A stretch of 64,000 bases of DNA from an uncultured Oscillospiraceae bacterium. GTDB taxonomy: Bacteria > Bacillota > Clostridia > Oscillospirales > Oscillospiraceae. Shown here piece by piece: positions 3,144 through 61,672 of this stretch; the first letter of the stretch is position 1; every line of letters begins with the position of its first letter. Made by a program: the position numbers and the translations under genes. The notes beneath the pieces were generated by a model. It saw nothing but the letters and a program-made list of their open reading frames with translations. It searched no databases and was not told the origin of the DNA. The stretch covers positions 1-64,000 of the forward strand of contig CANQCS010000008.1 of the NCBI GenBank assembly GCA_947589745.1, read 5' to 3'.

Positions 3144-3173
3144 TCTTGTGTTCACCTCCATGAGATTTCGCTC

Positions 3174-3265
3174 CTGCTTTTTCTTGAAAGAAAAAGCAGG
3201 GAAAAAGAACGTTTGCCTCGCTCTGGAGGCCGCCGCGTTTCCAAAATCTCCGCCCGGCAACGGAG
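3174..3265 (+). repeat. Dispersed MITE-like palindromic element, copy A (diverged)
   Basis: cctgctttttct-tgaa-agaaaaagcagg stem-loop followed by gaaaaagaacgtttgcctcgctctggaggc...ccaaaatctccgcccggcaacgg, parallel to the other copies. Confidence 0.8.
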
Positions 3266-3288
3266 GAGCCGCGCCGGAGGGGAGAAGA

Positions 3289-3323
3289 AAAACGGTCCCC
3301 ACGCAAAGACGCGAGGACCGTGC
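3289..3323 (-). terminator. Attenuator hairpin in the rplJ (L10) leader
   Basis: Minus strand: acggtcctcgcgtctttgcgtggggaccgtttttc, a stem followed by a T-run between promoter and rplJ start; position fits an L10 leader. Confidence 0.7.
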
Positions 3324-3395
3324 TGATCGTTAAAACCGGCAATCCTCGGCAGGACTTACGGGCCGGGGCCCACCTGCTGTCTTTGGAACGCAACA
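3324..3395 (-). promoter_or_regulatory. Probable ribosomal protein L10 leader region
   Basis: Structured 5' UTR between the promoter at 3401-3429 and rplJ, containing ggtgggccccggcccgtaagtcctgccgaggattgccgg; class assigned by position and partial resemblance. Confidence 0.5.
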
Positions 3396-3400
3396 AACAT

Positions 3401-3429
3401 ATTATATCCAAGGGCCGACAGCTTGTCAA
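3401..3429 (-). promoter_or_regulatory. SigA-type promoter for rplJ-rplL
   Basis: Minus strand TTGACA - 17 nt - TATAAT. Confidence 0.9.
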
Positions 3430-19790: not shown

Positions 19791-19990
19791 TGTGCCCTGC
19801 GGGGTGCGTGATGGGCCTTCTTTTAACCCACATTCTGTTATACGGGATGCTGGTTCATCGTCTGGTTTGCAGGCCTCCCGGCTGCCACCTGCGGTTGGAA
19901 GTTGGAAGCAGTAAAGGACGGTGCAGGCGACCCACCTGCCAAGCGTGTGCAGGTTATAACAGGGTCCACACGGCCATCGCGGGGCACTAT
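19791..19990 (+). ncRNA. ssrS: 6S RNA (clostridial type)
   Basis: Closing stem gtgccctgcgg...(c)gcggggcac; internal aacccacattctgttatacgggatgc, gcaggttataacagggtccacacggccatcgcggggcac; ~197 nt followed by an AT-rich stretch. Confidence 0.82.
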
Positions 19991-20776: not shown

Positions 20777-20984
20777 GATGACCTCTCCCCTCCCACTCTC
20801 AGGAAACTACGAGCACTTTAGCAGATGAATCCCGGAATGTCAATGCAACTATTATTCAGTTCATTTTTGGTGATTTTTGGCAGCGAAATGGTTTGTTTCG
20901 ATAGAATTAAGTTCAAAAATAAAGAGCTTCCCTTTTGAGGAAACTCTTTGAGCAATCGTTCCTTTCTTCCGTTAAAGCCATGCA

Positions 20985-21078
20985 TCGCTGACGGGTAAGA
21001 AATGCCGGAACCGCAGCGCTTTGGCAGTGATATTAAAGGTTTTTTTGATGCTTTTTCTTTCAGGAAAAAAGTATCAGG
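20985..21078 (-). repeat. Dispersed MITE-like element, copy B (inverted, diverged)
   Basis: gctgacgggtaagaaatgccggaaccgcagcgctttggcagtgatattaaaggtttttttgatgctttttctttcaggaaaaaagtatcagg. Confidence 0.75.
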
Positions 21079-29186: not shown

Positions 29187-29303
29187 TACTTTTTCTTGAA
29201 AGAAAAAGTATCAAAAAGAACTTTAACCTCGCTTCCAAAACACTGCAATTCCTATCTTTCCTGCACGGTGACGATATACTGTTCTGATTGAAAAATCGTA
29301 TAA
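29187..29303 (+). repeat. Dispersed MITE-like element, copy C (~117 bp)
   Basis: catactttttcttgaaagaaaaagtatcaaaaagaactttaacctcgcttccaaaacactgcaattcctatctttcctgcacggtgacgatatactgttctgattgaaaaatcgtataag. Confidence 0.92.
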
Positions 29304-45465: not shown

Positions 45466-45583
45466 GATACTATTCTTCTATTAGAAGTATATTTCGTTAC
45501 CGTGCGGAAAATGTAGGAATCGCAATGCTTTGAGAGCGAGGATAAAGTTCTTTTTGATACTTTTTCTTTCAAGAAAAAGTATC
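45466..45583 (-). repeat. Dispersed MITE-like element, copy E (inverted, ~118 bp)
   Basis: gatactattcttctattagaagtatatttcgttaccgtgcggaaaatgtaggaatcgcaatgctttgagagcgaggataaagttctttttgatactttttctttcaagaaaaagtatc. Confidence 0.92.
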
Positions 45584-45584
45584 A

Positions 45585-45627
45585 GCGCGGGGACGGCTGC
45601 CGGGCAGCCGTCCCCGCGCTTGCTTTT
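45585..45627 (+). terminator. Hairpin adjacent to copy E, upstream of dsdA
   Basis: gcgcggggacggctgccgggcagccgtccccgcgcttgctttt. Confidence 0.7.
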
Positions 45628-45721
45628 CAGGGGCGGATATTGTATAATCATGTCATACATATGTGCGCCGGGGAGCGGCAGGCCGCCCTCCCCCGCTATC
45701 TTGAGCAAGGAGGGCCCCCCT

Positions 45722-47011
45722 ATGGAGATCGACACCGCCCTGTGGAGAGAGACCAGCCCCACCGTCCGGGACCTGTGCGAGCTGCGGGAGACCGTCTGGC
45801 TGAACTCCGGCCTGCGGCCCGCCGCAGAAGGCCTGGCCACCGCGCCCCTCACCGCCGCCGACGTGGCGGACGCTGCCGCCCGGCTGGAGCGCTTCGCGCC
45901 CTATCTGGCCGCCGTGTTCCCCGACACCGCCCCCGCCGGGGGCATCATCGAGTCCCACCTGGTGGAGGTGCCCCGCTACCAGGAGCTGCTGGGCTACGGC
46001 CCCGGCAGGCTGCTGATGAAGCTGGACAGCCACCTCCCTATCTCCGGCTCCATCAAGGCCAGGGGCGGCATCTACGAGGTGCTGTACCTGGCGGAGTCCC
46101 TGGCCATGAAAGCCGGGCTCCTGCGCTATGGGGACGACTACGCCGTGCTGGCCCAGCCCCGGTTCCGGGAGTTCTTCCGGCAGTACGCCGTGGCGGTGGG
46201 CTCCACCGGCAACCTGGGTCTGTCCATCGGCATCATGAGCGCCCAGCTGGGCTTTCGGGTGACGGTCCATATGTCCGCCGACGCCCGGCAGTGGAAGAAG
46301 GACATGCTCCGCAGCAAGGGCGTCCAGGTGGTGGAGTACGCCGCCGACTACAGCAAGGCGGTGGCGGAGGGCCGCCGTCTGGCCCGGCAGGACCCCATGT
46401 GCCACTTCGTGGACGACGAGAACTCCCAGACGCTGTTCCTGGGCTACGCCGTGGCGGCAGAGCGATTGGCAAAGCAGCTGGCGGAGCGGCACATCCCCGT
46501 GGACGGGGACCACCCGCTCTTTGTGTACCTGCCCTGCGGGGTGGGCGGCGGCCCCGGCGGCGTGGCCTTCGGGCTGAAGCTGCTCTACGGCGACCACGTC
46601 CACTGCTTCTTCGCCGAGCCCACCCATGCCCCCTGCATGACCCTGGGCCTGGCCACCGGCCTCCACGACCGGGTCTGCGTCCAGGACTTCGGCATCGACA
46701 GCCTCACCGCCGCCGACGGCCTGGCGGTGGGCCGCCCCTCCCGATTCGTGGGGAAGGTCATGGCCCCCCTGCTCAGCGGGTGCTACACCGTCACGGACGA
46801 GCGGCTCTACCGCCTGCTCCGCCAGCTGGCGGACAGCGAGGGCATCCACCTGGAGCCCAGTGCGCTGGCTGGCGTGCCGGGCATGGGGCTGGTGGCGGAC
46901 TACGCCACCGGGCGGGGCATCGACCTGGCCCATGCCACCCACATCGCCTGGGCCACCGGCGGCAGTATGGTCCCGCCGGACATCTGGCAGGAATACTACG
47001 CCCACGGCTGA
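45722..47011 (+). CDS. dsdA: D-serine ammonia-lyase
   Basis: [49 protein letters not shown]...[56 protein letters not shown]...[19 protein letters not shown]. Confidence 0.95.
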
Positions 47012-47012
47012 C

Positions 47013-47100
47013 ATTCTTTTTCTTGAAAGAAAAAGAACAAAAAGAACTTTACATTCGCTTCCGAGGCGCTGCGACACCTGCATTTCCGCCCGGTAACGAA
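47013..47100 (+). repeat. Dispersed MITE-like element, copy F
   Basis: attctttttcttgaaagaaaaagaacaaaaagaactttacattcgcttccgaggcgctgcgacacctgcatttccgcccggtaacga. Confidence 0.88.
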
Positions 47101-47104
47101 AGAG

Positions 47105-47150
47105 GCGCGGGGACGGCCGCCACAGGCCGTTCCCGCGCTCTTTGTTGTTT
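47105..47150 (+). terminator. Hairpin terminator downstream of dsdA
   Basis: gcgcggggacggccgccacaggccgttcccgcgctctttgttgttt. Confidence 0.75.
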
Positions 47151-48874: not shown

Positions 48875-49030
48875 GTGGTATTGAGATTTTTCTGATTGGG
48901 GATTGGGGCTGGAGATTGCGGATGACGCCGGGGGTGAGGGAGCAGCTCAGGAAGCGGCCTGATAGATGCGCACCCATCAGGCGCGGCCACGAGAAACGCG
49001 AACAGCCGGGGCATTCATTGATAACATGAT

Positions 49031-49187
49031 AATACTTTTTCTTGAAAGAAAAAGTATCAAAAAGAACTTTCATATCGCTACCAAAACGTTGCTATTCCTG
49101 CATTTTCCACACGGTAACATTATATTGTTTTAATTGAAGAATTCCAATATTTCCCGCACGGTAACGATATATGGTTTTCATTGAAGA
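49031..49187 (+). repeat. Dispersed MITE-like element, copy G (~157 bp, duplicated tail)
   Basis: atactttttcttgaaagaaaaagtatcaaaaagaactttcatatcgctaccaaaacgttgctattcctgcattttccacacggtaac..., then a second cccgcacggtaacgatatatggttttcattgaagaatcgtat. Confidence 0.92.
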
Positions 49188-49421
49188 ATCGTATGAGACG
49201 CTTTTCTCCCACCTTGCGCCCACGTTTCTTGGGCTCAATCGCATCTATGCCGCCCGCATCATAAGCTTTGAAGATCATCCGCACAGTTTTATCGGAGAAA
49301 CCTGTTGCCTCGCATATTTCTTTTACTTCCTTTCCTTCCGCCTGAGGCTGAGTGCGACCTTCTTGATCTCGTACACCGTTTCCGGGCTGGCTTTGCGATA
49401 GTCTGTCCCTGTCTTTTTCAT
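49180..49421 (-). pseudogene. IS630-like transposase N-terminal HTH remnant (frameshifted, truncated)
   Basis: Minus strand MKKTGTDYRKASPETVYEIKKVALSL, frameshift, QAEGKEVKEICEATGFSDKTVRMIFKAYDAGGIDAIEPKKRGRKVGEKRLIR, then runs into repeat copy G. Confidence 0.75.
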
Positions 49422-49492
49422 GGCTGTATTATACTTCTCTCACACCCCTTCAGGTAGTTCTTTTGCGATTATTTTATTGCCGGAGTAATATT

Positions 49493-54107: not shown

Positions 54108-54121
54108 AGGATCACAAAAAT

Positions 54122-54322
54122 GTGTAAGTGCTCCCACGGGCGTCCGGCCCGCGGGGGAGAATAGGAAACCGGGTGGGAATCCCGGACGGTACCGCCGCTG
54201 TATGCGTCCAGGCCGCTGTCCACAGATGAAAATCGGTCACTGGGAAACCGGGAAGGCCGGACAGCCGCCGCGAGAGGGTCGTCCTCTCTGAAAACGCGAG
54301 TCAGAAGACCTGCTTACAGATG
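54122..54322 (+). promoter_or_regulatory. Cobalamin riboswitch 1
   Basis: gtaagtgctcccacgg...gggagaataggaaaccgggtgggaatcccggacggtaccgccgctgta...cggtcactgggaaaccgggaaggc...gcgagtcagaagacctgc. Confidence 0.96.
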
Positions 54323-54373
54323 GATGCTTCTCCCGCGATGTACGGGCCAGAGGCTTTTCTTGTTGCGGAAAAA

Positions 54374-61405: not shown

Positions 61406-61427
61406 CATCCGTGGAAAATTCCATACG

Positions 61428-61622
61428 CTTCAAGTGCCCCTTCCGGCGTCCGGCCGGTGGGGGAGGATAGAGAACCGGGTGAGAATCCCGGACGGTACCG
61501 CCGCTGTATGCGCCGGGGCCCGTACTCGTCGGCGAAAGCCGGTCACTGGGAAACTGGGAAGGCAGAGTAGGGGCCAGGGAGGGACCTCCCGACGGCGCGA
61601 GTCAGAAGAACTGCTTGAGGAG
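61428..61622 (+). promoter_or_regulatory. Cobalamin riboswitch 2
   Basis: caagtgccccttccgg...gggaggatagagaaccgggtgagaatcccggacggtaccgccgctgta...gccggtcactgggaaactgggaaggc...gcgcgagtcagaagaactgc. Confidence 0.96.
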
Positions 61623-61672
61623 GACCCCTGCCTGCGAGTGACGGGCGGAGGGGGTCATTTGTTGCGGAAAAA

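Follow-up and report, generated by a model that had tools for sequence, protein, structure and literature searches.

Among described bacterial repeats, the one closest to the family considered here is perhaps RUP of the pneumococcus, which has been proposed to be mobilised by IS630-Spn1 (PMC2229807) and whose insertions into other IS genes have been reported (PMC2229807, PMC3049150). By description, RUP shares with our repeat a length of about 110 bp, AT-richness, the apparent lack of an ORF, a copy number above 100 and ends that resemble those of a co-resident IS630 element. Unlike RUP, which is found at TA targets, our repeat duplicates TNA, carries an asymmetric, palindromic left end and concentrates on stop codons. 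Correia/NEMIS and other bacterial MITEs are likewise short and AT-rich, with terminal repeats, a target duplication and a structured transcript (PMC2229807), and they differ from our repeat in their TA termini and in their other sequences. The whole IS630-Tc1-mariner group is said to duplicate a 2-bp TA (PMC8533490), and Fot elements make a 3-bp duplication, TAA (PMC7386202). The pogo/Fot elements thus share both the supergroup and the 3-bp duplication with the system described below, but they are eukaryotic and duplicate TAA only, as opposed to TNA. We know of no link between pogo/Fot elements and stop codons.

The repeat studied here is a MITE, 114 bases long, that lives as a mobile DNA parasite in gut bacteria, and the element that we call copy G is one rearranged member of the family. 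Copy G lies in the window, by which we mean the whole 64,000-nucleotide stretch of contig CANQCS010000008.1 (uncultured Oscillospiraceae bacterium) that was analysed. Our reading as a whole, which we regard as quite probable, is that this MITE is driven by an IS630 element of a type A, inserts at TNA, has been fused from two copies in copy G and lies preferentially on stop codons. The family consensus, TACTTTTTCTTGAAAGAAAAAGTATCAAAAAGAACTTT...GGAGAATAGTA, was derived from 83 copies of exactly 114 bp with a mean pairwise identity of 84%; the ends read TACT...AGTA, and the left end is a 24-nt palindrome. Like other bacterial MITEs the element is short (114 bp, against a usual <200 bp), high in copy number and AT-rich, with a GC content of 35% vs 60% in its flanks. 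BLAST found 59 matches in the window's own genome and a pattern search found 233 (118 + 115 half-sites), compared with 0 for a reversed-pattern control; the own-genome copies were read from individual genome stretches. The MITE occurred in 24 of 60 related genomes, all of one Oscillospiraceae genus, and in 0/35 of other genera. Genomes with the exact core were, among the matches listed, Oscillibacter and other Oscillospiraceae MAGs; none of the viral contigs scanned contained the repeat. Besides copy G, the window holds full 114-nt copies at 29187–29300 (plus strand) and 45468–45581 (minus strand), a degenerate copy at 20964–21069 (minus strand) and two decayed variants on the plus strand. One variant (47012–47105) has a different outer stem and directly follows the TGA stop (47009–47011) of the ORF at 45530–47011; the other (3173–3277, 3' boundary approximate) has the outer stem CCTGC/GCAGG. 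Rfam matched no family at copy G. Elsewhere in the window it matched two cobalamin riboswitches (54112–54331 and 61415–61632), a 6S RNA (19791–19989) and an L10 leader (3278–3404).

As in other bacterial MITEs, the copies are flanked by a target site duplication, here the 3-bp TNA. Over all species, 36 of the 56 copies with intact ends had identical flanking 3-mers, and there were no matches at lengths of 1, 2, 4 or more. TNA stood on both sides of 69/75 copies in the window's own genome, and the variable base N was equal on the two sides in 53 of these 69, compared with a mean of 20.3 and a maximum of 35 equal pairs in 20,000 shuffles; other duplication lengths were not enriched. A 2-bp TA duplication, the RUP-like target, showed no enrichment (0/75), and a search for an extended motif beyond TNA gave weak preferences at most, with TTA rare. 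This duplication is unexpected, since TA is canonical for IS630/Tc1.

The most obvious candidate for the parent of the family is the transposase fragment beside copy G, and it is on this point that our account departs from the initial annotation. That annotation rightly recognised copy G (49033–49193) and the frameshifted, minus-strand HTH fragment of IS630 style that it abuts (49197–49421); the end that it gave for copy G, 49187, is near the true one, which lies a few bases further, at 49193 (...GAATCGTA). The fragment is probably the N-terminal remnant of an IS630 transposase gene, of what we call type C, with the C-terminal part missing. Its minus-strand peptide is GKEVKEICEATGFSDKTVRMIFKAYDAGGIDAIEPKKRGRKVGEKR, with the ORF start (MKKTGTDYRK...) in another frame, and the composite peptide of both frames matches the winged/HTH models HTH_28 and HTH_29 above the Pfam cut-offs. 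The best NCBIfam match is the IS630 transposase model NF033545 (E 1.7e-5, 24.4 bits), below the whole-protein cut-off, as is to be expected of a 76-aa piece; NF033545 is also the best match of a type C relative on contig C39, again below the cut-off (65.6 bits). A search of 60 related genomes with the HTH peptide returned the window itself and a weak 33% match only. The DDE part of type C found a 60% identical relative in another genus, and from this relative the terminus was obtained. The corresponding terminal inverted repeat in the window, TTACTCCGGCAATAAAATAATCG, lies at 49466–49488 on the minus strand with TA just outside it (49489–49490); it is the sole match in the window, where 0 are expected by chance, and the same terminus is found at the C-terminal end of the type C relatives L006/L035 (contig C39) and L161.

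The initial annotation proposed that this junction marks the parental transposon of the repeat family, in which case copy G would be an internally deleted derivative of type C or a marker of its terminus. The physical adjacency of copy G to the remnant suggests as much, and in contig C39 another MITE copy is separated by 38 bp from a type C terminus. However, the type C terminus, TTACTCCGGCAAT, agrees with the MITE right end at 7/20 positions (p 0.44), which is the chance level, and its agreement with the left end is at chance too. The flanks differ as well, being TA in 3/3 type C elements and TNA in the MITE. Moreover, the type C terminus is found 270 bp away, beyond the gene, so that copy G abuts the gene interior rather than an element end. 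The initial annotation had itself named unrelated termini of intact IS630 copies as speaking against its proposal, and the type C termini come close to that case. We therefore consider type C a very improbable parent. Adjacency to a transposase remnant is thus shown to be poor evidence of parentage, and a tempting but wrong assignment can here be replaced by a tested one.

What stands of the earlier proposal is mobilisation by an IS630 element, with a different, co-resident element, type A, in the place of the neighbouring type C. The MITE right end matches the left end of type A at 17/20 positions and its right end at 18/20 (p < 0.0002 by shuffling), and the ends of a type B element at 14–15/20; the MITE left end matches the type A ends more weakly, at 11–12/20. 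Inverted repeats common to the MITE and a co-resident transposon, a hallmark of bacterial MITEs, are thus found at the right end and in weaker form at the left. ORF-B of type A is an IS630 transposase by NF033545, scoring 141 bits against the equivalog cut-off of 100, and matches DDE_3 with E 1.9e-23. ORF-A and ORF-B overlap at an A7 slippery site, which is conserved in types A, B and G006, and the split genes of types A and B (A AAA AAA T; L031, L033, L032, L040, L132, L119) suggest programmed -1 frameshifting; split ORFs are also annotated in relatives from Caballeronia and Acidithiobacillus. The type A gene on contig C165 (L031:1-60) is preceded by a sequence that, by eye, looks like the 3'-terminal part of a group II intron.

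From these end sequences, type A is the likely driver of the MITE, and we infer that its transposase would bind the MITE ends and move the MITE in trans. One genome, the window's own, has the highest number of MITE copies (233) and by far the highest number of type A matches (14), and it is the only one in which type A is abundant. In several to many genomes of the same genus MITEs are present but no close type A gene was detected, and the driver there may therefore have been lost, be unassembled or be a different one. No single contig of the assembly spans type A from end to end. Because repeats break the assembly, the left ends (L046, L047, L049) come from other contigs than the right ends (L031-L033, L038, L039), the ORF being common to both. 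For a type B element that has inserted into type A, a search for the right junction gave none. Within 3 kb, contig C39 (L006, L035, L131) contains a nest of insertions with a type A fragment, type B and a type C end, together with an IS66-like fragment (by eye) and two MITE copies.

The duplicated triplet itself invites consideration of another mover. TNA is the target of the IS1031 group of IS5, and a transposase of such another family (IS5/IS1031-like) might have moved the MITE, the likeness to type A then being due to convergence or to shared ancestry of the ends. The TA rule for IS630/Tc1 (PMC8533490), from which type A departs both in its TNA flanks and in the 3-bp duplication of the MITE, would fit this idea too, but an end identity of 17–18/20 argues against it. 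So does the context of the type A and B elements themselves, all 19 ends of which lie in TNA instead of the 2-bp TA of IS630, although these are single ends and not a duplication at one intact copy. Further afield, two relatives of type A from Burkholderia, identical to each other, and one from Caballeronia are flanked TTA/TTA, which is weaker evidence in that the same triplet is shared. A search of the genome for an IS4/IS5-type DDE_Tnp_1_2 (PF13586) gene, with this single model, gave none. On balance we hold a mover from another family to be quite unlikely. There is good support for a MITE that is driven by an IS630 element and has TNA as its unusual target, which documents a bacterial IS630/MITE pair with TNA rather than TA as its target.

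If copy G is not the stump of a parental element, its structure asks for another explanation. The second tail remarked on in the initial annotation is indeed present: a 110-nt body from one MITE copy (49033–49142, plus strand), which lacks the terminal AGTA, is followed by an extra 54-nt tail (49140–49193, plus strand), which corresponds to the final 54 nt of what looks like a different MITE copy. The body is 94% identical to family members such as L002, L004 and L005, and the tail is closest to L181/L018, of another subfamily; the two meet in a 3-nt microhomology (AAT) common to both parents. To the left stands TAA (49030–49032), judged from its sequence and the family-wide duplication to be one half of the left partner's TNA target duplication, and to the right TGA (49194–49196). 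As these flanking triplets differ, copy G is not one simple insertion. The unequal flanks, the tails of different subfamilies and the microhomology make copy G look like two MITE copies fused together. If a single MITE had simply duplicated its tail in tandem, internally, this would explain why the two tails cover a common stretch of the consensus, but neither the different subfamilies of body and tail nor the unequal TAA/TGA flanks agree with it, and we find it unlikely. The simplest history of the fusion would start with a MITE that entered the type C gene at a TGA and was later joined, by a deletion through microhomology, to another MITE lying to its left. Such a deletion would have taken away what remained of the type C element and left a two-tailed copy with unequal flanks. 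Neither an intermediate nor an empty site was found for this deletion.

The left end of the MITE deserves separate attention. Its 24 nt form a palindrome, in copy G TACTTTTTCTTGAAAGAAAAAGTA (49033–49056, plus strand), which in a fold of the family consensus forms an RNA hairpin. In diverged copies the outer stem has changed on both sides: at one pair, 37 distinct sequences have A-T 19, C-G 4, G-C 4 and T-A 2 times, with 8 non-pairing or wobble cases. Such compensatory changes fit selection for the hairpin; template-switch correction of palindromes can also yield them. Some variant hairpins keep the same core within different, still complementary outer stems (window 3173-3205 and 47012-47045; L062, L075, L087, L116, L218). 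The palindrome is itself bounded by TACT...AGTA followed by TCA (e.g. 49033-49059) and so resembles a minimal element of the same kind. The MITE copies at L002, L015, L016 and L111 adjoin strong inverted repeats which, with the T runs that follow them, look like intrinsic terminators.

The concentration on stop codons, finally, was likewise unexpected, and is a solid pattern. Copies with a clean duplication are placed at gene 3' ends, and when a gene ended no more than 60 nt before the left end, the distance was 0 in 35 of 44 own copies, that is, the TNA was the stop codon. When all TNA sites in 3' gaps were counted, 34/55 copies lay on the stop codon as against 17.5 (sd 2.6) expected. Stricter gene criteria gave 27/29 left-side cases vs 11.5 expected, and the other species 10/15 vs 4.2. 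Set crudely against every TNA site outside ORFs, the excess was weaker (56% vs 36%, p 0.0009), because spurious ORFs inflate the background. Of the 10 upstream proteins checked, 9 have Pfam domains, and an FtsY-like one ends where its family profile ends. The hairpin end faces the gene in 30 copies and the other end in 6, a bias that arises in part because TTA targets are rare. Where a TAA or TGA stop codon is duplicated, the protein stays unchanged. Our literature search found no description of such exact stop-codon placement for bacterial MITEs.

This placement may reflect target choice, retention by selection or both. If the positions came purely from selection against gene disruption, every insertion outside genes would survive and stop codons would be no more than the closest TNA at which insertion does no harm. 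In favour of this, TNA sites in the background outside long ORFs are often stop codons themselves (36% in the crude count), and the few type A and B ends lie away from gene stops, one coincidental case excepted, although the left ends (0/5 on stops, p 0.15) are too few to be telling. Yet the 35 of 44 copies at distance 0, the excess in other species and the 21/36 copies on a natural TAA or TGA stop in 3' gaps with at least 4 TNA sites, where 6.0 are expected, all argue against selection as the sole cause, and we consider it doubtful. Offered tentatively, and less probable than not, is the possibility that an IS630 subgroup cuts and duplicates TNA and that its MITE prefers stop codons in one orientation, which would put the structurally conserved hairpin at the mRNA 3' end; insertion would then be harmless in compact genomes, the duplication restoring the stop, and the MITE would perhaps become part of the 3' UTR. 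Should target choice prove to lie behind the concentration, we would have a clear example of a transposon that avoids gene disruption by aiming at stops; should selection do so, the hairpin would seem to have a function at the 3' ends of mRNAs.

No base-exact empty site turned up within the species, and two same-site pairs bear on individual insertions. In L005/L093 the divergence is too great to place the insertion base. In the other, L199 (own genome, C11:29230-30660) against L058 of another Oscillibacter MAG, at about 84% identity, the insertion lies directly after the stop codon. The L199 copy, whose right end is altered, sits in the gap between two genes named by eye as spoIIIAC and spoIIIAD, where the other MAG has only 2 nt between stop and start.
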